33,520 nucleotides of DNA, from positions 1-33,520 of IMG/VR virus record IMGVR_UViG_3300042332_001711; one strand, 5' to 3'. This stretch comes from a virus. This document shows, in pieces, positions 1-33,520 of this stretch (positions within the stretch are counted from its first letter, which is position 1; every line of letters begins with the position of its first letter). Under the pieces are notes generated by a model. The model was given only the letters and a program-made list of their open reading frames with translations, did no database searches and was not told the origin of the DNA. The position numbers and the translations under genes were made by a program.

Positions 1-281
1 GTGAACTACCGAACGACTAAAGATCGTTCGGCTTCAGAACATAAATGTTCTTTCTTTTTAGACACTTCATCGCCGCTGCTTTTAAATTGCTTTAATAGTC
101 TTATATCAGCTCCATGCCTGTAATCGACAGTTCCTGCCGATCTAGTTCCATAGTAACTAGTTTTTGCCTTTGATATACTTGGTATCAGCATCCTATAGAA
201 ATTAATCTAGCTACGCCACTGAAAGGTCTTTTTATTATTTGTTTTAGATCTATTTCCATTAAAGGGGTTATTTTTATTTAT
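1..281 (-). ncRNA. candidate structured RNA in copy A (omega-RNA/HEARO-like)
   Basis: Helices seen here are 9-16/24-31 (loop CTAAAGA), 37-42/45-50, 142-147/155-160 (loop CCATAGT), and a bulged stem at about 193-210. Compared with copy B, several stems have different bases on both sides but still pair, and the loops are unchanged. Two GATAAATA sequences on the minus strand (282 to 275 and 295 to 288) resemble the late promoter motif and would start transcription just before the structured part. Strand is inferred from these and from the right-end layout of TnpB-type elements. The opposite strand is possible, since hairpins fold on both. The 61-residue reading frame inside is probably not a gene. 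Confidence 0.5.
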
Positions 282-359
282 CTTTTTTATTTATCTTTTG
301 CAAGGCTGAGTTTCATCTGAGTGACTAAAGATCACTCAGCTTTCACTCAGTCCTGAAAT
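1..359 (-). mobile_element. IS200/IS605-like structured element, copy A (no protein gene)
   Basis: This is copy A of a repeat found again at 4965 and 33395, all in one orientation. The left end begins GTGAACTACC and carries a hairpin at 9-31 (8-bp stem, loop CTAAAGA). The right end carries a second hairpin at about 317-340 (stem CTGAGTGA/TCACTCAG) with the same CTAAAGA loop in the same orientation, nested in an outer CTGAG/CTCAG pairing. Two similar terminal hairpins in direct orientation are typical of IS200/IS605 transposons, not of inverted-repeat IS. No TnpA, TnpB or IscB gene is present, so this would be a non-autonomous derivative. The element lies just 3' of the DUF5672/methyltransferase gene. 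The true outer end at position 1 cannot be checked because the window starts there. Confidence 0.65.
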
Positions 360-407
360 ATAAATAGTTAAGAAAATCTATTCTTGTATACGTAGTATGT
401 GACATAT

Positions 408-1730
408 TTACTGAATCTCGAGAATACCTATTCCGCAATTATAGAAATTTACATGATCTGCTTTATGTTTAAATTCTATGTAGTTATAATTATGTTTAAT
501 TTCTTCCCAAAACTTACCAACACCAACTCCATCTCCCATATTACCTATATCATGAAATATTAAAAACCCGTTCTTATTAACACATTTTAACGCATTTTCA
601 TAATCAGCTTTAACACCTTCGTAAGTATGATCTGCGTCAATAAAAATACAATCATAATTCTTAGTGTTGTTTGCAAAAAAATTATCCGTTGAACTATTAA
701 AAAAACACACTTCCTTTGAAGGAAACATTTTTTTAAGGATGTCTACTTTGGCCTGTATTTTTTCCGGTGTCTGTTGTACGTGAGTGTCTCTATAAGCAAT
801 ATTATCAACGCAGTGCAAAATTTCAGCTGTGCTTTGCAAAAATAAAGAATTAACAAAAAAACTACCACCATTACCTACTCCAAGCTCTAGATATGTTTTT
901 ATATTCCGGTGTTTAATATAAGATAAGAATTTTGAGTATTCTTCAGGTATTTGTTGTAACTGTAAATTACCCGGCGTGTTACAATAGAAATAATGTGGTA
1001 GTTGACTACCTGCCTCGTCTCTTACCCACACTTCAAGCTGCTCAGTGCTCATATTAATTATATCGTCTCTATAAAAATTCATTTGTAAATTTTTGATATG
1101 TTGTATATGCTCACTAGTGTGAGTGCCGTGAAAGGCTAGTGTTTTTTGTATATTATGATCAAGATCCTCACAAACCATTTCGATAGAAAAAGCAGACGCG
1201 AGCTCCAAAGGCGCAAACGTAATACCGTTCTTTTCAAGAAACGCTCTATGACCGACACATATATCTGTATCTTCATGCCCACCACAAGGTAGTTTTTGAA
1301 CTATATCCATTAATCTCTTACTACGAATAGATACGCCGCCGTTACCTACTCTGTGATTTTTATCTGTATAATGTGCTGTTGCTTTCCACGGAGCACCGAT
1401 ATAATCGTATTTTAAAAACTCATCCGTCCAACGATCCGGAGAAATAACAAAACCATCTCTATGAACACTAAAAGCGAATTCAGTTACTATATAATTAGGT
1501 AACTGGTAAATCATAAACTTACAGTAATCTGCAAGATTATTGAGTTTTTCTATCTGTATAAACTTTATGTTACTTTTTATATTGAACGGTTTTTGATGTG
1601 CGAATAAAATAACCTCTTTAAAATTTAAATGTTCACATGTTTTTTCTAATGCTTTAATAGCTAACCTAGGGTCTACGCAATCTGCTACAAATAACGTACA
1701 ATTGTCTATATTTTTTTTGTGTTTTATCAT
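408..1730 (-). CDS. DUF5672-like glycosyltransferase fused to a SAM methyltransferase
   Basis: This 440-residue protein has two parts. Residues about 10-215 look like the DUF5672 family, a glycosyltransferase-related domain usually found in glycan clusters, including YDYIGAPW at about 109-116, the VGNGGVSIRS block at 128-137 and GHEDTDIC at 151-158. Residues about 275-440 form a class I SAM methyltransferase of the Methyltransf_24 kind: LELGVGNGG (281-289) is the SAM-binding glycine motif and IFIDADHTYEG (about 362-372) is the acidic post-motif. A sugar-transfer plus sugar-methylation role is inferred. It is the last gene of the minus-strand GT run, with copy A of the repeated element 48 bp beyond its stop. 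The substrate cannot be read from the sequence. Confidence 0.75.
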   Translation of the reverse strand: MIKHKKNIDNCTLFVADCVDPRLAIKALEKTCEHLNFKEVILFAHQKPFNIKSNIKFIQIEKLNNLADYCKFMIYQLPNYIVTEFAFSVHRDGFVISPDRWTDEFLKYDYIGAPWKATAHYTDKNHRVGNGGVSIRSKRLMDIVQKLPCGGHEDTDICVGHRAFLEKNGITFAPLELASAFSIEMVCEDLDHNIQKTLAFHGTHTSEHIQHIKNLQMNFYRDDIINMSTEQLEVWVRDEAGSQLPHYFYCNTPGNLQLQQIPEEYSKFLSYIKHRNIKTYLELGVGNGGSFFVNSLFLQSTAEILHCVDNIAYRDTHVQQTPEKIQAKVDILKKMFPSKEVCFFNSSTDNFFANNTKNYDCIFIDADHTYEGVKADYENALKCVNKNGFLIFHDIGNMGDGVGVGKFWEEIKHNYNYIEFKHKADHVNFYNCGIGILEIQ

Positions 1731-1742
1731 ATTTTTTAAATA

Positions 1743-2534
1743 TTAGTATTTAATGTGCTCATCTATTGAGATATACTCGAGATCAAGCGCCAAAAATAAA
1801 CTAGAATTAGATACATTAGAAACAGTTTTTATAAGCATGTTACTTTGAGACATCAGATATGTCTCAATCACTACATCTTCACCCATCCTGTACGGATCTC
1901 TCGTACCTACTGAGTGATGTACACCTATATTTGTAGGTGTTTCAGCACGTATACTATTGTACGCGATAACCTTTGAGTTACCATATCTTTTTTTAAAATC
2001 GTTAATAGAATACTCTTCATCTGAGCATATAAGCAGTTTATCATACCTGTCTATATATCTATCTACCGCTTCGTAATATTCTGAAATACTGAGTAGCGGT
2101 GCATCGGTAACATGATCTGTACCTCTCTTATGTACAGCAAGTACAGTTTCATTTTTATTTTTATGCTCTAACCAAAAATTATTTATTTTTTTTACGACAT
2201 GTTGCTTTAGACGGATATACTCTGTACACATTAAATTTGCTATACGTCTAGTCTCAATACTCGGCCTACATTCAATAGACAAGTGTCCGTTTAGCCACAC
2301 GTCCTTTGTATATATATTTTCTCGTTCCGCGAGAGTGATGTTATATGGTTGCTCAAAATAATACTCCCAAACGTTTTCTCCGTACGAGGCATCTTTATAT
2401 CTCATATTGTTATCAAAAAGAACGTATAGCTTATTACCGCTACAGTGTGTAACGTACAAGTTACTTATAACTTGTACGAAATACGACATTAAACCAGCGT
2501 GCCTGGCTCCTGGTATAGTTGCTAAAATATGCAT
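1743..2534 (-). CDS. fucosyltransferase-like protein (GT23/GT11/NodZ-like)
   Basis: This is a 263-residue protein. The recognisable motif is HKRGTD at residues 135-140, which matches the H-x-R-x-T-D nucleotide-sugar-binding motif of the alpha-1,6/alpha-1,2/protein O-fucosyltransferase superfamily, where the arginine contacts GDP-fucose. The N-terminus (ILATIPGARHAGL) fits the first Rossmann strand and loop. Late blocks such as MGEDVVIETYLMSQS and SNVSNSSLFLAL resemble the C-terminal region of that superfamily, where a serine/threonine after the ETYLMSQ-type helix is common. It directly follows the GT10 gene with no gap. The acceptor is unknown. Fold-level assignment is fairly good, exact family less so. 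Confidence 0.65.
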   Translation of the reverse strand: MHILATIPGARHAGLMSYFVQVISNLYVTHCSGNKLYVLFDNNMRYKDASYGENVWEYYFEQPYNITLAERENIYTKDVWLNGHLSIECRPSIETRRIANLMCTEYIRLKQHVVKKINNFWLEHKNKNETVLAVHKRGTDHVTDAPLLSISEYYEAVDRYIDRYDKLLICSDEEYSINDFKKRYGNSKVIAYNSIRAETPTNIGVHHSVGTRDPYRMGEDVVIETYLMSQSNMLIKTVSNVSNSSLFLALDLEYISIDEHIKY

Positions 2535-3350
2535 TTAATTAAATAAAAAATTATATGTTTTATAAAGCCAATCTTCAGTTGTTTTAAACTCTTTTGCTTT
2601 TAAAAAATTTTCTTCTATTGCAGAGCTCTTACTGGCGTATATAAAATCACTGTTATGGTTTAACTCTAACAAAATATTTTGTAATTCTTGTATAGTGTTA
2701 AAAAATATTATGCCGTCTTTATTAAAATAATCCACAACACTTTCAGTGCCCCAGTATATAGGGATTGTTTTTGTGTTAAAGCAATCTACAATCTTCTCCG
2801 TCCAATAACCTCTCTGTACACTATTTTCAATTACAATTGAAAATTTATAAGTAGAAAGTGCTTCTTCCTTATAAGCAACTGGTCTATAACCTCTTCCGTA
2901 AACATCTATATCTCGTATTGCGCTAATAACGCTATGTCTCAAATGATGACCGTATGTATGATTCTTACTAGACGCAATAATAGAAATATTTTTGTTTTTT
3001 TTCTGCTCAACATAATTAGTAATCCATGTTCCTCCCCATACCCCGTAGAGGTAATTTTCCCCTCTATCTGTTATATCTAAATCATGTGTTATTACAAAAT
3101 CGAACTCTTTATTGTTGTGTATAATCCAGTCGTATATTTCTGGTATTAATGATTTAGGCTCTAAAATCCATGCAATCTTTCTCTGCGCACCGCGTAAACG
3201 TTTCGCATCAACAAGACAAAAGTCTGTTATAAAACACGATTTACTCACTCTAACATTACCTCTTTCCCATCTTACTAAATCGCTAATTTGCATATGACAC
3301 GATGAAGAGTCGCCTATGAAGTTTTTATCCTGTAAATTTATTGTGACCAT
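2535..3350 (-). CDS. GT10 alpha-1,3-fucosyltransferase-like protein
   Basis: This 271-residue protein shows the GT10 signature in its C-terminal half: FSIVIENS (170-177), YWTEKIVDCF (182-191) and IPIYWG (196-201), followed by the acidic VVDYFN region. These are the GDP-fucose-binding motifs of Helicobacter-type alpha-1,3/1,4-fucosyltransferases. It is shorter than many bacterial GT10 enzymes (about 350 or more residues) but has the complete donor domain. The start overlaps the 3' end of the preceding GT gene by 13 bp, so the two are translationally linked. A TATAAATA lies one base before the start codon on the coding strand. Transfer of fucose to a virion or host-surface glycan is inferred. 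Confidence 0.85.
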   Translation of the reverse strand: MVTINLQDKNFIGDSSSCHMQISDLVRWERGNVRVSKSCFITDFCLVDAKRLRGAQRKIAWILEPKSLIPEIYDWIIHNNKEFDFVITHDLDITDRGENYLYGVWGGTWITNYVEQKKNKNISIIASSKNHTYGHHLRHSVISAIRDIDVYGRGYRPVAYKEEALSTYKFSIVIENSVQRGYWTEKIVDCFNTKTIPIYWGTESVVDYFNKDGIIFFNTIQELQNILLELNHNSDFIYASKSSAIEENFLKAKEFKTTEDWLYKTYNFLFN

Positions 3351-4141
3351 GTATTTATATACTCCTCAATTTGTCCTTTCGACATATTGTTAATTTTTTT
3401 ATTTTCATTATGATTTTGTTGAAAAAAACTATGATCTTCTTTTTTACTAAATCTCTCTTTATCATGAGGTAAGTGGAAAAAATAAGGACTCTCTGTGTTG
3501 ATAGCGAAAATTTTAATGTTTAATTTTTTTGCTCTATCTATTATCTCAGTATCCTCAAACCCCCAGCCTTTTATATATGGGTTAAAACCACCTAAGCGTT
3601 TAAAGGTTTGCTTAGTGCCAAACAAACATCCACCCATAGCTTTAAGATTAGGTATGCTATAATTCTCCCCTATATAAAACGGGTAAATCGTTTGCTTATC
3701 GACAAAACTATCTAAAAATTCGTACAAATTGTCTACATTAACAGGTATTTGATCTTTTACCGTGTACGTAAAATACATACATGTGCCATTATAACCTATA
3801 CAAATACATTCCGGGACACAGCTAATAGTCTCTATAGCTTTTAACAGATTGGAACAACTAATAACACCATCAACATCTAAAAAACATATATTATCATGAG
3901 TTGCATGAGATAGACCGATATTATAACTCTTACTTTTATTGTATATAGCGTCATTATAAACAAACACGTACTTAACATCTTTTTCTTCTTGTAACATTTT
4001 AAAATGCTGCTCCGCATCATCTTCTACAAAAACAAACTCTGTCCCCGAGGGAGATATACGCCTATAATAATCAAATGTCATTAACAAATTTTTAACACGT
4101 TCCTCCGTGTCTTTTCGTATATGTATAATATATGTTAACAT
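3338..4141 (-). CDS. GT-A glycosyltransferase, galactosyltransferase-like (tandem paralogue 1)
   Basis: This 267-residue protein shows a DxD metal/nucleotide-sugar motif at 89-91 (FLDVDG) and the Glyco_transf_7C-type motif GWGFEDTEI at 192-200, which belongs to the acceptor/catalytic region of GT7/GT27-like beta-galactosyl or GalNAc transferases. It has the same length as its upstream neighbour and similar sequence throughout (both begin with an HIRKDT-xERV block and share IGYNGTC and LGGFNP/IGGFNP blocks), so the two arose by tandem duplication. It ends inside the start of the GT10 gene and begins 4 bp after the paralogue stops. Donor and acceptor sugars are unknown. Confidence 0.8.
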   Translation of the reverse strand: MLTYIIHIRKDTEERVKNLLMTFDYYRRISPSGTEFVFVEDDAEQHFKMLQEEKDVKYVFVYNDAIYNKSKSYNIGLSHATHDNICFLDVDGVISCSNLLKAIETISCVPECICIGYNGTCMYFTYTVKDQIPVNVDNLYEFLDSFVDKQTIYPFYIGENYSIPNLKAMGGCLFGTKQTFKRLGGFNPYIKGWGFEDTEIIDRAKKLNIKIFAINTESPYFFHLPHDKERFSKKEDHSFFQQNHNENKKINNMSKGQIEEYINTWSQ

Positions 4142-4145
4142 AATT

Positions 4146-4949
4146 TTAACTCCACGTATTAATATAATCTTTTAAATCATTTTTTGTCATATTAAGTATT
4201 TTTAAATATTCATTTTCATTATTCTGATACGCCGAGTGCATATGTTCTTTATTTTTGGTTGTTACACTTACATGGGGCAAATGAAACAAATACGGTTTAT
4301 CTGTATTAATATAATAAATTGCGACACCTAGTTTATTAGCTCTTCTTATAATCTCGTTATCTTCGTACCCCCAGCCGTTGAAATTAGGATTAAATCCACC
4401 GATGCTTTGAAACACTTCTTTATTCCCGAACAAAGAACCTCCAACTGCCTTAAGATTAGCAACATGATAATGTTCATTAGTGTAAAGGGGTGTTATTTTA
4501 TTCTTATCAATAAAACTGTCTAACCAATCGTAAAGCTCAATATTTAAATTATTCCGAGTTATCTGTCTTTTTACGCTATAATCAAAGTAAAAACATGTAC
4601 CATTATAACCTATACATATCCCACCCGTTTCATTTACAGTTTTTAAAGACTGTTTTAAATTTACATCACTAATAATACAGTCGATATCTATAAAACAAAT
4701 CATACTTTCTTTACATTTTGAAAGACCGTAATTATAACCCGCACATTTGTTGTATGAGCCAGTATTATGTATATAATAATATTCCACATCTCTTTCAATT
4801 GAAAGATATTCAAAATTCTTTACGCTATCATCTTCAACAACTACAAACTTGCAACCAGGAGCAATTTTACGATAATATGATAAAACCAAAGAAAGATTAG
4901 CAACTCTTTCATCCGTGTCTTTGCGTATATGAGCAATAAACGTAACCAT
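4146..4949 (-). CDS. GT-A glycosyltransferase, galactosyltransferase-like (tandem paralogue 2)
   Basis: This 267-residue protein has DxD at 88-90 (FIDIDC) and GWGYEDNEI at 192-200, the same two key motifs at nearly the same residues as the next gene. The start codon lies only 15 bp from the edge of structured element copy B, so any transcript reading through the element would enter this gene almost at once. The divergence of the pair is large enough (different acceptor-side residues around 140-165) that they may use different acceptors in one glycan. A role in virion or host-surface glycosylation is inferred from the cluster. Confidence 0.8.
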   Translation of the reverse strand: MVTFIAHIRKDTDERVANLSLVLSYYRKIAPGCKFVVVEDDSVKNFEYLSIERDVEYYYIHNTGSYNKCAGYNYGLSKCKESMICFIDIDCIISDVNLKQSLKTVNETGGICIGYNGTCFYFDYSVKRQITRNNLNIELYDWLDSFIDKNKITPLYTNEHYHVANLKAVGGSLFGNKEVFQSIGGFNPNFNGWGYEDNEIIRRANKLGVAIYYINTDKPYLFHLPHVSVTTKNKEHMHSAYQNNENEYLKILNMTKNDLKDYINTWS

Positions 4950-4964
4950 ATATTAGTTAAACAT

Positions 4965-5260
4965 GTGAACTACCAGTAGGCTAAAGACCTACTGGCTTCA
5001 GGGTATATATTCTACCTGTCTTTTTAGACATCTCAACGCTTGTGCCCTTTAAAGATTTCTCCTTAACAGGTCTTATTTTTGCTCCATGCCTGTAATCGAC
5101 AGTTCCTGCCGATGAACATCCATAGTATGTTCTTTTTGCCTTTGATATACTTGGTATCAGCATCCAAAAAGAAGACAATGTCTTTTTTGCTACGCCACTG
5201 AAAGGTCTTTTTATATAATTTAAAATATCTATTTCCATTGAAGGGGTTATTTTAAATTAT
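4965..5260 (-). ncRNA. candidate structured RNA in copy B (omega-RNA/HEARO-like)
   Basis: Helices are 4973-4980/4988-4995, CAG-G-GTA/TACCTG at 4999-5018 (one bulged G), GAACAT/ATGTTC at 5114-5119/5127-5132 (loop CCATAGT) and a long bulged stem at about 5165-5189 (CAAAAA-GA-AGAC/GTCTTTTTTG). Against copy A these stems change on both sides while keeping pairing, which is the usual sign of a selected RNA. One GATAAATA on the minus strand (5274 to 5267) is kept at the same place as in copy A and would initiate near 5261. Strand assignment is inferred. Confidence 0.5.
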
Positions 5261-5338
5261 CTTTTTTATTTATCTTTTGCAAGGCTGAGTTTCATCCGAG
5301 TGACTAAAGATCACTCAGCTTTCACTCAGTCCTGAAAT
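4965..5338 (-). mobile_element. IS200/IS605-like structured element, copy B
   Basis: This is the only copy with both ends and both flanks in the window (374 bp). The left end GTGAACTACC has hairpin 4973-4980/4988-4995 (CCAGTAGG/CCTACTGG, loop CTAAAGA). The right end has a CGAGTGA/TCACTCA hairpin with the same loop, then TCCTGAAAT, after which it no longer matches copy A. There is no clear target-site duplication at the two ends, as expected for IS200/IS605 single-strand transposition. It separates two glycosyltransferase genes. An 85-residue reading frame crosses it but is broken in copy A. Confidence 0.7.
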
Positions 5339-5413
5339 GTAAAAATTTAAATTCTTCTATTATTTGACTTCCCCGTCATTCTCTCTTAATATTTTAGTTG
5401 CTGTGTTATTCAT

Positions 5414-6160
5414 TTATTTAGTGAATTTGTTTGTTATATTAATATTCCCATACATTAATAACACCTCTTTAAAATGTTTATATTTTTGCTCATAAGCGTG
5501 AACATAGCTTATATTATTATGTGTACCTCCAAAATCAATACCCGTATCTTCTTTTGACGGATCAAATTTATTACTATACCAACTCATCCCTTCTAGATGA
5601 AGATAATATTCTCCCTGTAAATCTACATTACCGATTTTTAATTCTGCATTTTTAACGTCTTCAAAAAATGTTGATCCGATATCATAAATTTTATCTGTCT
5701 TAAAACTTTCTTTCATTTTTGTCTCGTTAAAAAAACGAATATCGTTTAACTTAATTTGCTCAACATCAATAAAACAATGCCACGGATTTACACGTTTATA
5801 TATCCTCTTACCACCTCTATCGCCTTCGATTTTACCCATTAGCGCAAGATTCAAGTCCTTAAACTGTTTAAAGATGTTGTTATGATCTTTTAAAAAAATA
5901 ACATCTGTATCAACGAGAAGAGCGTATTTAGTCTCACAGAGCTCTAAAGCTTTATTAACACCGTCTCCGTGCGTACCACCTTTTATACGCGTAAACGGTA
6001 TTTTATTTTCAGTTAAGAGTAAGCTAGTCTTCTCGTCAGTAGAGTTATCGATTAGGACGATTCTCTGTGCTCTCTTATGAGTAGACATAAAAGAGCGTAA
6101 CATAGTCAATGTGATATCAGGCGTATTATACGAGCACGTAATAAGTGTTAAGTCGTGCAT
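5414..6160 (-). CDS. GT2-family glycosyltransferase
   Basis: This 248-residue protein starts with the GT2 nucleotide-binding strand and turn (LTLITCSYNTPD), continues with VLIDNSTDE (35-43), and has the metal-binding DTD at 84-86 (LLVDTDVIFL). This is the usual order for inverting GT2 enzymes. The C-terminal half is less typical and may bind the acceptor. It lies 2 bp after the next GT2 gene and is followed by structured element copy B. Its substrate is not evident. Confidence 0.8.
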   Translation of the reverse strand: MHDLTLITCSYNTPDITLTMLRSFMSTHKRAQRIVLIDNSTDEKTSLLLTENKIPFTRIKGGTHGDGVNKALELCETKYALLVDTDVIFLKDHNNIFKQFKDLNLALMGKIEGDRGGKRIYKRVNPWHCFIDVEQIKLNDIRFFNETKMKESFKTDKIYDIGSTFFEDVKNAELKIGNVDLQGEYYLHLEGMSWYSNKFDPSKEDTGIDFGGTHNNISYVHAYEQKYKHFKEVLLMYGNINITNKFTK

Positions 6161-11437: not shown

Positions 11438-11872
11438 ATGGATACAGGTCACTGGTTGCTTGATCCTGGAGTCGTATTTAGCGAAGATACTTTTGGATTC
11501 ATATACATAATAACCAACAGGGTTAATAGTAAGAAATACATCGGTAAAAAGCAATGTGGTCGTAAAGTTAAACGCAAGCCGCTTAAAGGTAAAACTCGTA
11601 ATAGAATTGATCATAAAGAATCAGACTGGAAGACGTATACTTCCTCTTCTAATGAAATAAATAAAGATATCGAAAAAGACGGTAAGAATAATTTCGAGTT
11701 TCGCATTCTTAAAACGTGCGGTTCCAAGTGGGAGCTTGCTTATTATGAAGCCAAGCTTCAATTTGACAATGAGGTCTTATTAAATGAGAATTTTTATAAC
11801 GGTATAATAAATTTACGAATAGGCACTCCACCGAAGTACATATTGGACGCTAGTGCCCAGAGGCATAAATAA
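11438..11872 (+). CDS. GIY-YIG nuclease domain protein
   Basis: This 144-residue protein has FIYIITN (22-28) and KKYIGKKQ (33-40) as the GIY and YIG elements, then ESDWKTYTSSSNEI, which fits the conserved W-x-x-Y-x-S-S block of phage GIY-YIG proteins, and YYEAKLQ (about 102-108) with the expected catalytic glutamate. Lysine-rich segments surround the core. It could be a homing endonuclease-like or repair nuclease. No DNA-binding domain beyond the core is evident. It lies 3 bp after the small late gene and shares its late promoter. Confidence 0.8.
   Translation: MDTGHWLLDPGVVFSEDTFGFIYIITNRVNSKKYIGKKQCGRKVKRKPLKGKTRNRIDHKESDWKTYTSSSNEINKDIEKDGKNNFEFRILKTCGSKWELAYYEAKLQFDNEVLLNENFYNGIINLRIGTPPKYILDASAQRHK
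11864..11871 (+). promoter_or_regulatory. late promoter-like CATAAATA
   Basis: This is a one-base variant of TATAAATA (first base C), 10 bases before the ATG at 11882. The context GGCATAAATA also occurs at 13128. It overlaps the end of the GIY-YIG gene. Confidence 0.55.
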
Positions 11873-17112: not shown

Positions 17113-20100
17113 TCAGGTGTGAGAATTTTTAATCTTAGATTTAAGTTCTTCTAATTCGGTTTTTAATTCTTTTACCGCCTCGATAAGTAGAGCTGTTATT
17201 TGGTTGTAGTGTACACCTTTTACAGGCTCTCCGTTACTCGTATCAGTAAATACAAGCTCAGGTACAATTTTTTCTACATCTTGAGCTATAACACCAATAT
17301 TTTTTTGTGCAAAAGGTTCATTTTTATAGTTGTAGAAAACACCATTTAGGTTCAATGTTTTTTCAAGTGCATTTGTAATAGGAGCTATATTAGTCTTGTA
17401 ATTTTTATCAGATATAATAACCGCTAAAGTACCGTTACTATCTACCCCGATAGATCTCGTTCCTGTACCTGCAAGTTGAGGTATTGTAACTGTGTTTGTA
17501 TTATTGTTAATATATATAGATGTTCCTATTACAGTTGCTCCGCTTATATTTGATGATGCTATACCGCTAATATTAGTTGTTATTTCTCCTAAATAAACAC
17601 TTCCGTAAGATGTAAATACTCTCAATTGAGAAAACATAATTTTAGCTTGATTATTAGATATAATAACGTAAACATAGACAGTTCGATTCTGTAAACTGCT
17701 CGGCTTTGAATCAACCCAAAGGCTAGAGTTGTTCATATCACTTGAGCTTGTAGACATTATATATTCCCTACCTTTTATAAATACAGACGTATCTGAGTTA
17801 TATACAATAAAACCGGTTGCAGATTGAAGACTCAGAGCCTCGAGGCCAGTGGCTCCTGAGCCACCATCCCAATACGCTAGCCCATCGTACACTGTGGTTG
17901 ATCCTATCAGTCTGCCGGCGAGTATTTGATCATAGCAACCGGTTATTCTTGTGTTTATATCAGCTATAGTGGTTCTATTTCTATACGACATGGTGATCGT
18001 AGCGTAGTTGTTTGAGTGACCAAACATTACGTGCGGTCCAAATGTCGGATGTATACCAGTCTGCACCTGATGCCACCAACCGTGCCGTACCCCGGTATTG
18101 GCCCAGTTAGTTATATTGTTTTGCGCGGTGTTTGTTTTTATAGCATATACTCTATGTATATATCCTTCAGTTAGGGGTAACTCAAAAATTACATAAATAG
18201 AACCATCAGTTGCAAAATAAATACCGGCAGATTGATAAGCATTGTCGGTAATAATAGAGTCATTAATACCAGCTCCCGTTGATGTTTCAAGCTGTCTTTT
18301 TGTACCTACCCAGGTCATAGCGCCTGTACCAGGAGTTAATTGTAATAAGGAACAATATGATCTATTTTCACCTGTCTTTGCGTACGTAAACGTGTGTAAG
18401 AAAATATTACCTGTTAAATGATATAGATAAGAACCTCTATTAGTAAAAGCCGGACCAGTGTAATCTACATCAGCGGTAAGAAGATTATCGAGTTTCGTTG
18501 CCCAGTCAGATGGCAGTGTTGCCATATTATCTGTGGTAATTATCATCGTATCACCGTTCCATTCAGAAAATACTCTAGTCGAAGAATTATACCTTTTAAT
18601 TCTCATTGTACCGTCACTCCGAACAACGCTTACGGCTGGTCTTAGATAGTCGGTTATTGTCGTGTCTTGAGTTATTGTAGACGGTACTTCTAGGGCGTTA
18701 TTAATTCCGCCAAGTATATTTCTTCTACTAGCTATATTACCTATATTACTAATTGTCCATTTTTGACTACCTGTAGTTTCGTTCGGCTGCTTAGAGTATG
18801 CAAGAGATCTAATTTTATTTGGAGATATAAAGTAACCGTTTATGAGCTGTTTGCCTAGCAAAGAAGCGTCTGTTGGTACACTCCAGATCATATTGTTTTG
18901 AGTGTGTGGGCTATTCGTTGCATGAAACGGTCTTCTTAAGACATCTTCCCAGGTGCTTCCGTTGTTTATGGAATCCGTTCGGACGCCGTACTGTACTACA
19001 GATGCACCCCACTCCTTATACGTCGTAACTACTACATCGCTATTAGGAGACTTGCGTTGAAAGAATTTCCAACCTGCCCACCAATTTGCGCCAGCTGTAC
19101 CCGGTACATGGGAATGCAGTGAAAAGAACGGAGAGACCCAGCTACCAGTATCTTGCATATTAAACCTGTGAGGGAATGCATATTCTTCGGTGAATGTACT
19201 TGTACTTGTATTGTACGTAAAGACAGAATTATAGTTACAGGATGTATCCCAGGTAACCCCATCTATATAAAATGAGCATAAATCTGATATTAATAAGCTG
19301 TTACCATTTAAGCTGTATCTTAAATTTGCGCGTTGTACTTCAGTGAAGTTTACTGTAAAACCGTAAATTGTAAAACCGGGATCAGTATGTGTTAACTCTA
19401 CATTAAAATCAGTAGTAGCTGCACCACCGGGTAAGACTGTCTGACCAACAACACCAACTCGCTTAGTGTATGTAGCCATTAAGGCAGAGTCAGATTTTCT
19501 ATAAAACCTATAGATAAGCTCTTTACGCTCTCTACCCTTGTTAGGTTCCGCAGTAGTATTATAAAACGCGGCAGATTTAAACACTGTTAACCACCAGTCA
19601 AGCTCTTTACAGTAAACAATAGACCCTAAGGATATGTTTATATTTGTCGTAGCTGCTAGAGTTGTTACATTATCAAACGTATGGAAGAACGGGTTCATTG
19701 TACCGTTTATATGAACCCAGTAATATTTATCTGCTGCACCTGCTGTGCTCTTTATTAAGCAATAAAATCCGTGTTCATTACCGTCAATAATAGTACTAAC
19801 AAATTCAGTGCTCAGTAAAAACGACGGACGGTATTCGTTATCTGTGTTTTTTAAGCCTGTTAAATTCTTATCTGATGCTGTTGCAAAATATTGTTTCTCC
19901 GTCAAACCGTCAGAAGACCCGCCTCTGAGACCTACCACAGAACCGTCTCGTTCGAGTATAAAATACGGAGAAGAGTAATAACTTGATTGAGGTCCTTCAA
20001 AGCTGCCTTTTATGTCTACATCTATGTATGTTTGTTCCCCTACCCTCGAAACATCTATATTAGAACCTTTTGCTAATTTTGAATTAACTTCATTCCATGT

Positions 20101-20424
20101 TGAAGATAACCCGTTTACTGTTGTGTAGGTATTTTGCCAATTCGAAGATAACCCGTTTACTGTTGTGCAGGTATTTTGCCAGTTACTAGATAGATTTTTA
20201 AAGTTCGTGTATGTATTTTGCCAATTCGAAGATAACCCGTTTACTGTTGTGTAGGTATTTTGCCAGTTACTTGACAAATCTTTATAATTTGTATACGGGT
20301 TCAATAGTGCAGTACCAAAAATTTTTACGTTAGTAAGAGTTCCTGCACTAGATATTCTAGAAACTGGTAAAGTATCATTGTCTTGCAATGTTCCGCCGTC
20401 TATTAAACTTGAAATTGTAGCCAT
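17113..20424 (-). CDS. large tail fibre with C-terminal self-cleaving chaperone (peptidase S74)
   Basis: This 1103-residue protein has a short N-terminus (MATISSLIDG), a coiled repeat region at residues 51-106 (four 14-residue units with the core SSNWQNTY), a long beta-rich shaft, and a C-terminal intramolecular chaperone domain (about 1004-1103) with SDKNYK as the likely Ser-Lys dyad, FYNY, GVIAQDVE and a HYNQITALLIEAVKEL coiled coil. S74 domains trimerise fibres and then cut themselves off. This domain indicates a receptor-binding or side-tail fibre. The start is 8 bases after a TATAAATA on the coding strand, consistent with late expression. Confidence 0.9.
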   Translation of the reverse strand: MATISSLIDGGTLQDNDTLPVSRISSAGTLTNVKIFGTALLNPYTNYKDLSSNWQNTYTTVNGLSSNWQNTYTNFKNLSSNWQNTCTTVNGLSSNWQNTYTTVNGLSSTWNEVNSKLAKGSNIDVSRVGEQTYIDVDIKGSFEGPQSSYYSSPYFILERDGSVVGLRGGSSDGLTEKQYFATASDKNLTGLKNTDNEYRPSFLLSTEFVSTIIDGNEHGFYCLIKSTAGAADKYYWVHINGTMNPFFHTFDNVTTLAATTNINISLGSIVYCKELDWWLTVFKSAAFYNTTAEPNKGRERKELIYRFYRKSDSALMATYTKRVGVVGQTVLPGGAATTDFNVELTHTDPGFTIYGFTVNFTEVQRANLRYSLNGNSLLISDLCSFYIDGVTWDTSCNYNSVFTYNTSTSTFTEEYAFPHRFNMQDTGSWVSPFFSLHSHVPGTAGANWWAGWKFFQRKSPNSDVVVTTYKEWGASVVQYGVRTDSINNGSTWEDVLRRPFHATNSPHTQNNMIWSVPTDASLLGKQLINGYFISPNKIRSLAYSKQPNETTGSQKWTISNIGNIASRRNILGGINNALEVPSTITQDTTITDYLRPAVSVVRSDGTMRIKRYNSSTRVFSEWNGDTMIITTDNMATLPSDWATKLDNLLTADVDYTGPAFTNRGSYLYHLTGNIFLHTFTYAKTGENRSYCSLLQLTPGTGAMTWVGTKRQLETSTGAGINDSIITDNAYQSAGIYFATDGSIYVIFELPLTEGYIHRVYAIKTNTAQNNITNWANTGVRHGWWHQVQTGIHPTFGPHVMFGHSNNYATITMSYRNRTTIADINTRITGCYDQILAGRLIGSTTVYDGLAYWDGGSGATGLEALSLQSATGFIVYNSDTSVFIKGREYIMSTSSSDMNNSSLWVDSKPSSLQNRTVYVYVIISNNQAKIMFSQLRVFTSYGSVYLGEITTNISGIASSNISGATVIGTSIYINNNTNTVTIPQLAGTGTRSIGVDSNGTLAVIISDKNYKTNIAPITNALEKTLNLNGVFYNYKNEPFAQKNIGVIAQDVEKIVPELVFTDTSNGEPVKGVHYNQITALLIEAVKELKTELEELKSKIKNSHT
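20107..20274 (-). repeat. four 42-bp units encoding a 14-residue fibre repeat
   Basis: Units at residues 51-64, 65-78, 79-92 and 93-106 of the fibre each begin SSNWQNT. Three have the TVNGL ending and one has the NFKNL ending. One unit has Cys for Tyr. The units are close to each other at the DNA level and are a likely site of copy-number change by slippage. Confidence 0.85.
20407..20421. repeat. 15-bp direct repeat at the fibre gene start
   Basis: This is the partner of 17090-17104. It covers codons 2-6 of the fibre gene. The two copies bracket the whole gene. Confidence 0.55.
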
Positions 20425-20817: not shown

Positions 20818-21276
20818 ATGAATTTTGAAGATCTCTACTCTCGTTTGTTTGTAAAAGAAGCTCAACAACCTGAAGAACAAGGTGATGTTGCTCCTGAAAT
20901 GAATTATGATGATCTATCTGATGAAACAGATTTTGATGAAATAGAGGATAATACCCCTACTCCAGACAAATACGATGTTGAACCAATGCCTATTCCAAAA
21001 AATACGAGTAACAGCGTTAACGATTTACAGGGATATGTTGATAAGCTTCAAGAATTTTTAAAGGTGTTAAATGGCACTAGTGGAGATTCTTTGCAAAAAT
21101 TTGTTATTAGCGCTGAAAGACAAAATAGCTTGCTTCAGGGTATAGCTGATGACACAGCTGACGATATTACTAAACTTGCTGGTCAATTAGCGACTCTTGT
21201 ACAAACTCTTAACGGGTTTGTTAACATGGCTGAGAGACGCAAGAGAGAGTTAGCAGTAGCTGCTAGCCAAGTTTAA
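20818..21276 (+). CDS. acidic late protein with a possible capsid-targeting N-terminus
   Basis: This is a 152-residue protein. The N-terminus (MNFEDLYSRLFVKE, then AQ) resembles those of the genes at 11217 and 13143. Next is an acidic, disordered stretch (about 15-58, rich in Asp, Glu and Pro), then helices at about 65-150, probably a coiled coil (LQGYVDKLQEFLKVL and later LAGQLATLVQTLNGF). A head or scaffold-associated role is possible by analogy with T4 small core proteins but is not shown. Confidence 0.7.
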   Translation: MNFEDLYSRLFVKEAQQPEEQGDVAPEMNYDDLSDETDFDEIEDNTPTPDKYDVEPMPIPKNTSNSVNDLQGYVDKLQEFLKVLNGTSGDSLQKFVISAERQNSLLQGIADDTADDITKLAGQLATLVQTLNGFVNMAERRKRELAVAASQV

Positions 21277-21297
21277 GATTTAGTATAAACTATACGA

Positions 21298-22323
21298 GTG
21301 GAATTACCGCTCGATTTTGTAATACAGCATCTTTATACGTACTGCAAGAGACCTACGTATAAGAAGAATGATGGGTCGTATAATGCAGAGTGTTGTGTGT
21401 GTAATGAAGGTGCTTCGAGTGGGTCAAAAAGACGTTTATTTTATTTTCCGTCTGAAAGATATTTTTATTGTTTTAACTGCACTCGTTCGTGGAATGAAAT
21501 TACCTGGTTACAGGAAGTAACTAAAAAATCTGCATCTGAATTACTAAGAGAAGCAAAAGATTTTATACCAGATATACATGTATCAAAGCAAAAGGATGAA
21601 CAACCTTTTGTCTCGCCGTCTTGTACACAGATACCAGTTATACCAGAAGATTCAATAGATATATTAGATGATAAGCAGTGTTCATTTTACAATGATGTAC
21701 CTGTTATTAGAGATCTTATAATAAAGGCAGATAGTTATTGCTGTAAGAGGAGACTGAAATCTGCTATTAATAAACCTAAATCCTTGTTTGTGTCACCTAA
21801 AGATTATGTACACGCAAATAGGTTAGTTATACCGTTTTACGGGGAATCTAATAAGATAGAGTCGTATCAGAGTAGAGCGTTACTCGAGAATACACACCCT
21901 AAGTATTTAACAAAGTACGGCGAAAAATGTTTTTACGGTGAAAATAGTATACAGATAGATATACCTTATCTTTTTATATTAGAAGGACCGATAGATACGA
22001 TGTTCGTACAAAACGGGTTAGCTATTGGTGGAGCGAAGGTGACTTTAAGACAGAGCTCGTTTTTAGTAAAGCATTTCGATAAAGAGATTATTTATATTTT
22101 CGATAACGATAAGGATAACCCTGATATGCAAAAGAATATTTTAAATCACATCGATCAAGGCAAAAGAGTCTTTATATGGCCTAAGGAGTTAAAACAATAT
22201 AAAGATATTAATGAAGTATGCTGTGCATACGAGCTAGATCATATATCTACAAAGTTCTTGTTAGAGAATTCGTTTAAAGGAATTGAAGCTAGCGTTAAAT
22301 ACAGAACGTCTCTAAAAACGTGA
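21298..22323 (+). CDS. DNA primase (zinc finger plus TOPRIM)
   Basis: This 341-residue protein starts with GTG. A zinc-binding unit of CHC2 type uses C32/C35 and C58/C61 (CCVC and CFNC), and a TOPRIM domain follows with LFILEGPIDTMFV (the glutamate motif) and IYIFDNDKDNPD (the DxD motif). This is the layout of T4 gp61-like primases, which work with the gp41 helicase. The 3' end overlaps the end of the convergent 76-residue gene by 12 bp. Confidence 0.85.
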   Translation: MELPLDFVIQHLYTYCKRPTYKKNDGSYNAECCVCNEGASSGSKRRLFYFPSERYFYCFNCTRSWNEITWLQEVTKKSASELLREAKDFIPDIHVSKQKDEQPFVSPSCTQIPVIPEDSIDILDDKQCSFYNDVPVIRDLIIKADSYCCKRRLKSAINKPKSLFVSPKDYVHANRLVIPFYGESNKIESYQSRALLENTHPKYLTKYGEKCFYGENSIQIDIPYLFILEGPIDTMFVQNGLAIGGAKVTLRQSSFLVKHFDKEIIYIFDNDKDNPDMQKNILNHIDQGKRVFIWPKELKQYKDINEVCCAYELDHISTKFLLENSFKGIEASVKYRTSLKT

Positions 22324-25402: not shown

Positions 25403-26422
25403 TTACGATTCGCACGACTTGCAACTCATTATTGATCTTGCAAGCTCTTGTGCTGGGTTAGCACTACGTTGATAGTATAGACTTTTAATACCTTGCTCCC
25501 AGGCAAAAATCATAAGCTCGTTAACTTCTTTTGGCTTAGTACTAGGTGGTATCATAAGATTGAGAGACTGGCCTTGATCAATATACTTCTGTCGAGCTGC
25601 AGCTTGAATAATAATTTCTTTTTGAGAAATTTCACCAAATGTTTTAAACACATCTTTTTCTTCTTGGGTAAGAAAATCTAAATGTTGTACTGAACCACCA
25701 TGAATTAGTATAGACTTCCATACATCATCATTATCTTTGTCTTTTTCTTTTAAAAGATCTTTAAGAAAAGGGTTTCTATATGTAAACTTACCCTTTGCAA
25801 GATCTTTAACATAGTAATTACTATTGAGAGGTTCGATACTAGGAGATACTTGACCTAGTATAAAGCTTGAAGATGTGGTAGGTGCAACTGCAAGTGTAGT
25901 CGTGTTTCTACGAGTATAATTTGCTGTTTCAGGCATACCATCAAAGATTGGAGCCCGACCGTACATATTTGCTAATTCTTGGGAAGCACTATCCGCTCTT
26001 TCTCTAATGTTTTTCCAGATTAAATTATTAAGCATTTTAGCTTCCATAGACTCAAAGCTTATCATTTTTAATTGAAGAAGAGAATGCCAACCGAGAACAC
26101 CAATTCCAAGAGCGCGTTGATTAATAGCAAATTTACGAGATGCTTCCATGAATCTTACTCCTTCTGTTTTCTCAATAAACTCAGACATGACTGCATCTAA
26201 AAAATAAACCATCATTTCTACAGCGTCTGTGTTCTTCCATTCTTCCCATCTCTCGAGATTCATAGACGATAGATCACATACAAATGACTCATCTTTTGAA
26301 TTACTAAGAAAAATCTCCGAACAATTATGAACAAGTATTTTATTGGCAAAAAAATTCGCCACTCTCTTTACAGTAATGTCATATACTGGCTCTGCGTGTC
26401 TATAACGTTTAATTTTTAACAT
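25403..26422 (-). CDS. nrdA: split intein C-part plus C-terminal half of NrdA
   Basis: Residues 1-33 are the intein C-part (VYDITVKRVANFFANKILVHN), with the F and G blocks ending in the splice Asn. C34 is the first residue of the C-extein and corresponds to the catalytic radical cysteine (E. coli NrdA C439), followed by SE, where E441 is expected. C49 (FVCDLSS) fits C462, LYYQRS carries the Tyr pair of the radical chain (Y730/Y731), and the C-terminal CKSC fits C754/C759. After trans-splicing this would restore class I NrdA. Confidence 0.92.
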   Translation of the reverse strand: MLKIKRYRHAEPVYDITVKRVANFFANKILVHNCSEIFLSNSKDESFVCDLSSMNLERWEEWKNTDAVEMMVYFLDAVMSEFIEKTEGVRFMEASRKFAINQRALGIGVLGWHSLLQLKMISFESMEAKMLNNLIWKNIRERADSASQELANMYGRAPIFDGMPETANYTRRNTTTLAVAPTTSSSFILGQVSPSIEPLNSNYYVKDLAKGKFTYRNPFLKDLLKEKDKDNDDVWKSILIHGGSVQHLDFLTQEEKDVFKTFGEISQKEIIIQAAARQKYIDQGQSLNLMIPPSTKPKEVNELMIFAWEQGIKSLYYQRSANPAQELARSIMSCKSCES

Positions 26423-26427
26423 AAAAT

Positions 26428-27288
26428 TTATTTTTTAATAGGAATACAAATGTTGGAAAATCCGGTTAAATGATACTTATCATCCACTATTTGGCTTAGC
26501 ATATTATAGTATCCTTTTTTACCTAATCCACCGAATCTAAATTTTGCTACACCCTTTAACCATTTAAAATTACGAATTTCCGATAATCTTATCATCTCCG
26601 GCCATGATAAGATTCTGCCAAATTCCTTATATGTCTCCACGCCTTTTTCTAGAAAATAGTTATCCTCTAGACCACAATATCTATTATTATTTTTACCAGC
26701 TCCTATTTGTTTTCGTGTGATTCTTTCCTCCTCAGAAATTTTTCTACCTTTCGTATGATGTACCCATGTGCCAGACAGGACGTTAGGATGATTAACTGGC
26801 ACAGAACCTATAATTTTATTCGTATTTCTGTCTTTTACAACAATTGTTCCTTTTCTTGCTTTAGAAATTCTCGTTCTACCCTCTTCTGTTTGCCATCCTT
26901 CCGTCTTACGCAAGAATACTGAATGATGCTTTAACCAAGCGTACCCCATACGAATTTTTTTATTTAAAATGTTACTAAATTTACCTTTAAATATATTATT
27001 ACTGTTGTATCCGTTTAATGTAAGCCTTACAGCTAACATATCTTCTCGCTTTCTATAAATTTTATATCTCAACATATGCAAGAAAATATGCTCTTCAGGT
27101 AAAACTTCTACAAGATTGTTAAGTTCATCACTACCCCCAAGGGACCTAGGAATAATGTGATGAACTTCTTGATAAATTGTTTTATTCATTAGTCTTGAAT
27201 CATTTGAATTTCTTTTTTTTAATCTCGCTCTAGGATTTGTTGTCTTAAAATAAGCTATAAATTGATCATGTATTTTTTTATAATTCAT
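26428..27288 (-). CDS. HNH homing endonuclease between the intein halves
   Basis: The start is set at the ATG at 27288, just after a hairpin. A TTG 12 bases earlier is possible. The 286-residue protein has an HNH domain at about 38-75: EVHHIIPRSLGG (H43, H44), NNLVEVLPEEH (N57/N58, H67) and H71. KGRKISEEE and CGLEDNYF blocks are typical of DNA-binding NUMOD-like regions of phage HNH enzymes. Its position exactly between the N- and C-intein genes fits the fractured-gene arrangement, in which a free-standing endonuclease takes the place of the intein's own homing domain. Confidence 0.88.
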   Translation of the reverse strand: MNYKKIHDQFIAYFKTTNPRARLKKRNSNDSRLMNKTIYQEVHHIIPRSLGGSDELNNLVEVLPEEHIFLHMLRYKIYRKREDMLAVRLTLNGYNSNNIFKGKFSNILNKKIRMGYAWLKHHSVFLRKTEGWQTEEGRTRISKARKGTIVVKDRNTNKIIGSVPVNHPNVLSGTWVHHTKGRKISEEERITRKQIGAGKNNNRYCGLEDNYFLEKGVETYKEFGRILSWPEMIRLSEIRNFKWLKGVAKFRFGGLGKKGYYNMLSQIVDDKYHLTGFSNICIPIKK

Positions 27289-27289
27289 A

Positions 27290-27318
27290 TTTCTGTGCAA
27301 TGCTTTTATGCACAGAAA
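27290..27318 (-). promoter_or_regulatory. hairpin directly before the HNH gene start
   Basis: On the coding strand TTTCTGTGCA/TGCACAGAAA forms a perfect 10-bp stem with a 9-base loop, ending 2 bases before the ATG at 27288. It follows AATAAATA at 27326 to 27319. In T4, homing endonuclease genes such as I-TevI have hairpins that hide the ribosome site in read-through transcripts and allow translation only from a late promoter. Confidence 0.7.
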
Positions 27319-27326
27319 TATTTATT

Positions 27327-28406
27327 CTATTCGTCGTTATTTTTTAGGGTTTCGAGTACATCATCTTCTCTCAAATCTTGAGCTTGTACGTATCCTCTGT
27401 TTTTAGTGTAAATTTGATGCTCAGGTGTGCATTTAATAACGTTACCGTCTTCGTCTTCAATTTCTATTAAATCGATCGATTCTCCTGTTTGAGCAAACGC
27501 TTCAATAGTCGAATATACTTCTTGATTTGTTTCTATATCAAATGATCTCACTTTAACATTAATATACCTCTTCATATAATAACCAAGATCTACAATTGGT
27601 ATTTCGAGACATTCATCGCCGTTAATAAGAATTTCTATCCTCGTATCACCAGTTACACATAAATTGCTATTATTAATCGTTAAACCTTTATCTTTATAAA
27701 TTTGAGGTGCTTGGTTATTTGCGTTATCAGTAAAGAAAATATATGGGTAACCTGATTCAAATCGTTTTTTTATTACCTGACCCCAAATTTTACGTGCTTC
27801 TTTATCACCGTCTAGCATTTTTTTCATCCAAGAGTCAGATACACATACCCCTATAGACATATCTTGAATCTCATTACCTTCAGAGCGAATCTTTAAGAAC
27901 TCTTCAATGTCTGGATGATCAATAGGGAGATAGGCAGCGAAAGAACCTCTACGAACATTGCCTTGAGATACTACGTTCATAAGTTTGTTATAAAGCTCCA
28001 TAAAATGTACAGAACCTGTAGACTCTCCGCCAGAAGAAATAGGTGTACCCCTACCCCTTATATCACCAAAATACGCAGACGTACCGCCGCCGCCAGCAGT
28101 CATAGTACCGACTTCAGCAACTTTTTCAAATATACATTCCAAAGTGTCGCAAATATAAGAACCAAAACACGAAATAGGCAACCCGCGCTCTCTACCAAAA
28201 TTAGACCACACCGGGCTAGATAAAGAATAAAAACCTCTAGACATATACCCTTCAAACTTATCAGCAAACCCTACTATATTGAGGTATTTTTCTGCTGCTT
28301 TTGCAATGTCTTTAATTCTTTGTTCCGCTGTCTCTCCTTCTAACAAGTAACCTCGTTCAAGAAATTTACGGGAATCTTTGTTTAGCCAGTATATATCATT
28401 ATTCAT
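27327..28406 (-). CDS. nrdA: N-terminal half of NrdA plus split intein N-part
   Basis: Residues 1-249 are class I NrdA without an ATP cone: SCFGSY (C80, E. coli C225) and the TMTAGGGGTS and VRRGSFAAYLP blocks. The NrdA sequence stops at NNSNL (245-249) and the intein starts at C250 (CVTGDTRI). The intein N-part is 110 residues, with a B block CTPEH and an A block at C250, and ends at 359. The intein junction codon is at 27657-27659. Splicing with the C-part gene would rejoin SNL to CSE at the radical cysteine. Confidence 0.93.
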   Translation of the reverse strand: MNNDIYWLNKDSRKFLERGYLLEGETAEQRIKDIAKAAEKYLNIVGFADKFEGYMSRGFYSLSSPVWSNFGRERGLPISCFGSYICDTLECIFEKVAEVGTMTAGGGGTSAYFGDIRGRGTPISSGGESTGSVHFMELYNKLMNVVSQGNVRRGSFAAYLPIDHPDIEEFLKIRSEGNEIQDMSIGVCVSDSWMKKMLDGDKEARKIWGQVIKKRFESGYPYIFFTDNANNQAPQIYKDKGLTINNSNLCVTGDTRIEILINGDECLEIPIVDLGYYMKRYINVKVRSFDIETNQEVYSTIEAFAQTGESIDLIEIEDEDGNVIKCTPEHQIYTKNRGYVQAQDLREDDVLETLKNNDE

Positions 28407-33333: not shown

Positions 33334-33394
33334 CTATATTATATTTAACGTTTTATGAGCAGCTATCTCTTTATATGTTTCACCAACCACCTGT

Positions 33395-33520
33395 GTGAAC
33401 TACCGAACGACTAAAGATCGTTCGGCTTCAGAACATAAATGTTCTTTCTTTTTAGACACTTCATCGCTTGTGCTTTTAAATGAATTTAAAAGTCTTATTT
33501 TAGCTCCATGTCTGTAATCG
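33395..33520 (-). mobile_element. IS200/IS605-like structured element, copy C (truncated by window end)
   Basis: The first about 75 bases are identical to copy A (including the CCGAACGA/TCGTTCGG hairpin with loop CTAAAGA). Beyond this, the copy differs where a stem lies: CTTTTAAAT/ATTTAAAAG at 33473-33481/33484-33492, a perfect 9-bp stem that is imperfect or different in A and B. The right half is outside the window. As in copy B, its left edge lies just upstream of the start of a minus-strand gene (33333). Confidence 0.65.

Follow-up and report, generated by a model that had tools for sequence, protein, structure and literature searches.

The DNA analysed here, called the window throughout, is a viral contig of 33,520 nucleotides (IMG/VR record IMGVR_UViG_3300042332_001711, taken over its full length). 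It carries a repeated element in two complete copies, c1 (1-359) and c2 (4965-5338), and in a third, c3 (33395-33520), which is cut by the contig end. The complete copies are 81% identical over their full length, for which chance is ruled out (BLAST E=9e-95), and c3 is 92% identical to c1. Alignment and BLAST bear out the original prediction, made from the letters alone, that the three copies lie in one orientation. The hairpins with a CTAAAGA loop that it placed at both ends are found on the plus strand at 4973-4995 and inside 5285-5329, and the limits it gave are right at the base level, one end lying at 4965 (...GGTAGTTCAC) and the other at 5338, beside TTTAC.

Because the element still encodes the C-terminus of TnpB on its minus strand, the minus strand is the working strand. 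The left end on the plus strand is therefore the right end (RE) of the insertion sequence, downstream of tnpB, and the plus-strand right end is its left end (LE). On the working strand the loop reads TCTTTAG. IS605-type transposase and nuclease genes are missing from the window, as had been noted. The earlier description of the element as lacking any protein gene holds for transposase and TnpB genes, but it overlooked a TnpB C-terminal remnant in a minus-strand ORF, of which the part 4990-5115 is 81% identical to TnpB residues 369-411. At 85 amino acids this ORF is the longest relic in the element and is too short for a transposase. The features of the window are collected in Table 1.

Table 1. 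Features of the element and its flanks in the window
Feature	Position	Strand	Remarks
Complete PATE/MITE copy c2, 374 bp	4965..5338	-	LE at 5338, RE at 4965
Complete PATE/MITE copy c1, 359 bp	1..359	-	RE end is the contig start, overlapping the G001 end by an identical 127-mer
RE-proximal part of copy c3	33395..33520	-	Cut by contig end
Relic ORF, 85 aa	4981..5238	-	Part 4990-5115 encodes the TnpB C-terminal end
Omega-RNA-scaffold-like module of c2, 149 nt	4965..5113	-	Common to tnpB elements; alignment, pair counts, ISDra2 comparison
RE terminal hairpin CCAGTAGG-TCTTTAG-CCTACTGG	4973..4995	-	UUUA at -21 to -18
LE subterminal nested hairpin of c2	5285..5329	-	Outer CTGAGT/ACTCAG, inner with the same TCTTTAG loop
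MITE-specific structured domain of c2: CCTTTCAGTGGCGTAGC - hairpin - GGATGCTGATACCAAG - AAAGG - hairpin 5114-5132	5114..5250	-	Model match 5099-5250, pair counts
MITE-specific structured domain of c1	127..271	-	Covariance model match; overlaps scaffold by one hairpin
LE flank TTTAC of c2, predicted TAM / target motif	5339..5343	-	Flank motif, 10/10 copies
LE flank TTTAT of c1, predicted TAM / target motif	360..364	-	Flank motif
Predicted guide of c2, ATGTTTAACTAATATATGGT	4945..4964	-	Position only, directly 3' of RE
Predicted guide of c3, ACAGGTGGTTGGTGAAACAT	33375..33394	-	Position only

A search for further copies and for TnpB genes, which the original prediction had proposed, yielded six more full or nearly full copies and three TnpB genes. 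They lie in two sister contigs retrieved by element patterns, G001 (IMGVR_UViG_3300042332_001447, 95.8 kb) and G003 (IMGVR_UViG_3300042332_001032, 57.7 kb). G001 bears two complete copies, one tnpB-carrying copy and one copy at each contig end; in G003 there are two tnpB copies, four others that are full or nearly so, one solo hairpin and, again, copies at both ends. G001 closes with the same 127 bases with which the window opens and, this being the length of an assembly k-mer, c1 very probably joins the two contigs. Core genes of T4-like phages are distributed over all three: SbcD-like gp47, a UvsW-like helicase and ribonucleotide reductase in the window; terminase, tail sheath, tail tube, helicase, DNA polymerase and SbcC-like gp46 in G001; portal, major head protein and ligase in G003. 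From the single 127-mer junction, the common sample of G001 and G003 and the complementarity of these core genes, we infer that the three contigs (187 kb) are one T4-like phage broken at element copies. A second phage, L103 (contig 3300032331_003909), from an independent sample, carries the element at 74% identity. In this contig two tandem left ends precede the element (L103:2063-2175), with differing stems and the same TCTTTAG loop. BLASTN of the element against named phages gave no match, and three further contigs with the pattern TGAGTGACTAAAGATCACTC (G002, G004 and G005) proved to be chance matches.

Copies c1 and c2 are carried by an island of six genes (408-6160), several of them glycosyltransferases and one with a methyltransferase-like domain, which appears to split gp47 in the window from gp46 at the end of G001. 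The ribonucleotide reductase large subunit is in two pieces (25403-28406). The N-part closes with an intein N-half, the C-part opens with an intein C-half, and a free-standing HNH gene (26428-27300) separates them; the arrangement has the appearance of a natural split intein in a fractured gene. A 572-amino-acid protein (28412-30130) with DUF723 and a weak REase_MTES_1575 match, likely a homing-type endonuclease, is encoded between the two reductase genes. The window also encodes a SegE-type GIY-YIG endonuclease (11438-11872; Pfam E=3e-31), and large proteins in G001 and G003 match the PHROG families homing endonuclease and HNH endonuclease. An 1103-amino-acid gene that looks like a tail fibre (17113-20424) contains 42-bp direct repeats (20081-20290). 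In the related contig G001 a PhoH-like gene (L013:89-2011) seems, from a reading of the translation alone, to have an intein within it.

Flanks, insertion sites and exchange among copies

The RE termini end in GGTAGTTCAC and run into unrelated flanks, and most LE termini have the sequence ATTTCAGGACTGAG. LE is preceded by the five-base motif T(T/C)TA(C/T), hereafter TTTAY, in all ten scorable copies, against a background frequency of 0.94%. To judge from the sequence, this motif stands where the cleavage motif and the TAM of an IS200/IS605 element would be. The suggestion that guides are taken from the flanks agrees with this arrangement as far as position goes: the RE flank has the place expected for a TnpB guide, and the opposite flank is the conserved TTTAY. 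The predicted guides match no other TTTAY-flanked site in the window, G001 and G003.

Most copies occupy intergenic positions or the ends of genes, and most share the orientation of the genes next to them; at least one copy, g3c, clearly points against its neighbours. Enrichment of late promoters (TATAAATA-type) does not go beyond expectation. One copy, G001:66314-66680, lies inside a gene in the sense direction. Its removal in silico at the called ends joins 262 and 99 codons in frame, giving an open frame of 361 codons; the first 24 codons past the junction score 0.35 bits per codon (coding 0.46 +/- 0.21, off-frame -0.66 +/- 0.37). The restored frame supports the called ends and shows that this copy lies within a gene. 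The original prediction proposed to fix the ends by empty sites in related phages; these were sought and none was found: relatives of the interrupted gene did not turn up, the exact empty-site 20-mer gave one chance match and a second empty-site pattern gave none.

Several partial or rearranged forms accompany the full copies. A 51-bp solo hairpin (G003:22350-22400) is a relic in which LE and RE are fused via their shared loop, one LE hairpin is inverted in place (G001:14787), and a lone right-end-like sequence (ATCTTTAGTTAATCGGTAGTTCAC) occurs at G001:55300-55350 without the remainder of the element. Among eight copies, 314 of the 630 informative column pairs show all four allele combinations. 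The copies recombine or convert, their variants being reshuffled as expected with mutual repair.

TnpB genes and the structure of the predicted element RNA

Genes for the protein that the element lacks, three intact tnpB genes, lie on G001 and G003, apparently within the same phage, as the original prediction had envisaged. The composite copy of G001 (20906-22288) encodes a TnpB of 413 amino acids (L013:2532-3773) with the Pfam domains HTH_OrfB_IS605, OrfB_IS605 and Cas12f1-like_TNB. Its best natural relative of solved structure is ISDra2 TnpB (PDB 8H1J/8BF8, E~7e-79), with which the RuvC motifs align. Both G003 proteins are 61% identical to the G001 TnpB. The RuvC residues D188, E272 and D354 and the zinc cysteines C325, C328, C344 and C347 are invariant in four aligned phage TnpBs.

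The tnpB-carrying copies have the same LE and RE as the protein-free copies. What the element shares with its tnpB parent is LE (about 56 nt) and the last 150 nt or so before RE; it amounts to the parent minus most of tnpB. The subterminal hairpins of LE and RE are alike in plan to those of the full-size tnpB elements of the same genome, TTTAY is present at the LE flank only, the RE flanks are unrelated, and there are neither terminal inverted repeats nor target duplications. The identification of the element as a PATE-type (ORF-less IS200/IS605) derivative is a strong one. Of the initial IS200/IS605-type reading, the phage-borne, non-autonomous and TnpB-derived character stands, but an IscB/HEARO affiliation does not, since the partner is a TnpB and Rfam gives no match. 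No Y1_Tnp (TnpA) gene was found in the window or in records G000-G011, which may be fragments.

The RE half of the element aligns with the 3' ends of tnpB and finishes at RE, beside the predicted guide, as expected of a TnpB omega-RNA. In the ISDra2 omega-RNA, -6G, -5U to -3C and -2A pair with GAA near -104, and a UUUA tetraloop occupies -20 to -17 (PMC10097598). The predicted element RNA has GUUCA at -6 to -2, within the GUUCAC that forms the 3' end of the c2 module, and UUUA at -21 to -18; the loop of a hairpin contains an invariant GGAAC (-142 to -138 in c2). The 3' letters and their positions agree with ISDra2 within one base, while the GGAA corresponds by letters only and lies further upstream. 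Because the GGAAC and GTTCAC columns are invariant, the GAA/UUC pseudoknot pairing gives no covariation signal either way.

Conservation of the structure was assessed for nine helices in nine complete or nearly complete copies, one of them from another phage. Of all cells, 97.1% are paired, and 18 of the 60 pairs have changed on both sides. None of 500 shuffles reaches the observed values, and slid controls show 0-3 two-sided pairs with 31-41% pairing. When the tnpB elements are included (TnpB identity down to 52%), the RE module has 15 of 28 pairs with two-sided change, versus 1-6 in controls. The covariation of the RE scaffold could be inherited in part from selection in tnpB copies. A long AT-rich helix predicted for c2 alone was left out, as the other copies do not have it. 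The Rfam check proposed at the outset (HEARO and omega-RNA models) came back empty: gathering and lenient scans gave nothing at E<=10 on 521 bases and nothing at E<=0.5 in the other copies. Scans of the window and the copies thus lend no support to HEARO, haloarchaeal sot RNAs or group I/II introns.

The protein-free copies possess, in addition, a domain of about 100 nt just 5' of the scaffold that is missing from tnpB copies. It consists of CCTTTCAGTGGCGTAGC, a hairpin, GGATGCTGATACCAAG...AAAGGC and a second hairpin, whose stem occurs in three covarying types. A covariance model built from this MITE-specific domain and the adjoining scaffold hairpin matches the MITE copies and L103 but none of 30 TnpB loci of viral contigs; weak matches of 16.8 bits (E=0.47) correspond to one place and were taken to be chance. 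The domain core of L103 is about 90% identical to that of the window phage, as against about 75% for LE and the RE scaffold. This conservation is the best indication that the RNA, beyond the DNA ends, is under selection in protein-free copies. The domain has no Rfam match, and a search with its motif of 85k cellular genomes gave four matches, all chance on inspection.

Possible roles of the element RNA

It seems probable that the copies are PATE-type derivatives of an ISDra2-like TnpB insertion sequence in a T4-like phage of about 187 kb, and that they home by means of guide RNAs used by TnpB in trans. Each copy keeps LE, RE and the tnpB 3' end, which on the minus strand would provide the TnpB omega-RNA scaffold. 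Read-through from the surrounding phage operons would yield an RNA made of this scaffold and some 16-20 nt of RE flank, and TnpB from the other elements of the phage would process and load it in trans. The resulting RNP would cut DNA that carries TTTAY and the guide, that is, the same site devoid of the element in an empty sister or rival allele. Repair by recombination would then copy the element into the cut allele, leading to homing and retention as with TnpB-encoding insertion sequences, the nuclease being supplied in trans. TnpB is known to cut the element-free site and thereby to drive insertion sequences in plasmids (PMC11870625; see also PMC10278001). Since the contigs contain no TnpA, trans-TnpB homing leaves primary transposition without an explanation.

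A plainer account, which we regard as rather unlikely, makes the element a passenger that consists only of ends and owes its movement to a Y1 transposase (TnpA) acting in trans from the host or from an unassembled phage region, the tnpB sequence being a leftover and no guide being made. ORF-less IS605 derivatives are indeed common and believed to be trans-mobilised (Haloquadratum; Halanaerobium), the hairpins at LE and RE, together with the TTTAY flank, would meet the needs of TnpA, and the 51-bp solo hairpin resembles the 52-bp terminal-only PATE of Haloquadratum. However, mobility of the ends does not account for conserved inner hairpins with compensatory changes, nor for a MITE-only domain that is better conserved between phages than the remainder, and no TnpA is encoded by three contigs that sum to a genome of T4 size. 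That the contigs break at copies, as is typical of repeats, might also suggest a single repeat spread by misassembly; this is exceedingly improbable, as inner copies differ in flanks and alleles and have whole genes on both sides, and as a diverged copy occurs in an independent sample.

Two other functions for the RNA may be weighed. Were the MITE-specific domain a self-splicing intron able to excise the element from mRNA, insertion into genes would be harmless, in keeping with the sense insertion at G001:66314-66680 and the open frame created by its exact removal; IStrons do combine IS605 ORF B with a group I intron, and ORF-less forms are known. This is hardly likely, in view of the null result with group I/II intron models at the thresholds given above, the position of most copies between genes or at gene ends, and the size of the domain, which at about 100 nt is small compared with a group I core. 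There are precedents for exapted TnpBs acting as transcriptional repressors, and dispersed copies with differing flanks could yield many guides, so that a stand-alone, TldR-type guide RNA, whose RNP binds without cutting and controls phage or host genes, comes to mind. It is highly unlikely here: the four aligned phage TnpBs keep their RuvC residues, in contrast to exapted dead TnpBs, and a guide from the element's own flank points at its own empty site, with no second TAM-flanked target in the three contigs.

Guide-directed homing with TnpB in trans, the reading that we favour, may be taken a step further. The ten or so elements, with their own sites as guides and three TnpBs in trans, might form an arsenal that destroys the element-free alleles of co-infecting relatives, the MITE-specific domain promoting trans-loading. 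This extension is tentative and somewhat doubtful. If true, many loci of co-infecting relatives would be hit at once, and the elements would make up a homing and exclusion system based on guide RNAs only. The predicted TAM (TTTAC) and guide can be read directly from the sequence.

Comparison with known systems

The kind of element described here is already known: PATEs have been described, one of them in an archaeal virus. A multi-copy family in a T4-like phage that combines TnpBs in trans with a new RNA domain and a structurally maintained scaffold has, as far as we could find in papers accessible without subscription, not been described. Like the PATEs of Haloquadratum and Halanaerobium, the element is ORF-less, has near-terminal palindromes of IS605 type, causes no target duplication and has terminal-only forms of about 50 bp; a Halanaerobium PATE retains 28 nt of LE, 58 nt of tnpB and a 160-nt RE. 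It differs from them in residing in a T4-like bacteriophage alongside intact TnpB elements, in the compensatory changes of its scaffold and in its extra RNA domain. The PATE of the archaeal virus HRTV-DL1 (489 bp) is of similar size and also belongs to a tailed virus, and one of its ends is strongly expressed as RNA. However, this virus is reported to have one PATE, shared with its host, whereas here about ten diverged copies coexist with tnpB copies in one phage. IStrons, including the ORF-less BcISt1, are likewise non-autonomous relatives of IS605/IS607 with a large structured RNA, but no group I intron is detected here.

As in ISDra2 TnpB/reRNA, the guide is predicted to come from the RE flank and the TAM to be the LE flank. 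In contrast to ISDra2, the TAM-like motif is TTTAY instead of TTGAT, the scaffold is about 28-40 nt longer, the nuclease would act in trans and TnpA was not found. The proposed logic is that of the IS200/605 TnpB gene drive in plasmids, in which the guide matches the empty site and element-free copies are cut (PMC11870625); there the element encodes TnpB, whereas here it carries the guide RNA alone. TnpB guide RNAs normally come from the element that encodes the nuclease. If those of the phage copies are indeed used in trans, a single nuclease would act with many guides that the copies themselves had recorded, an arrangement that resembles the split between guide and effector thought to precede CRISPR-Cas12, and phages would gain an RNA-guided counterpart of homing endonucleases.
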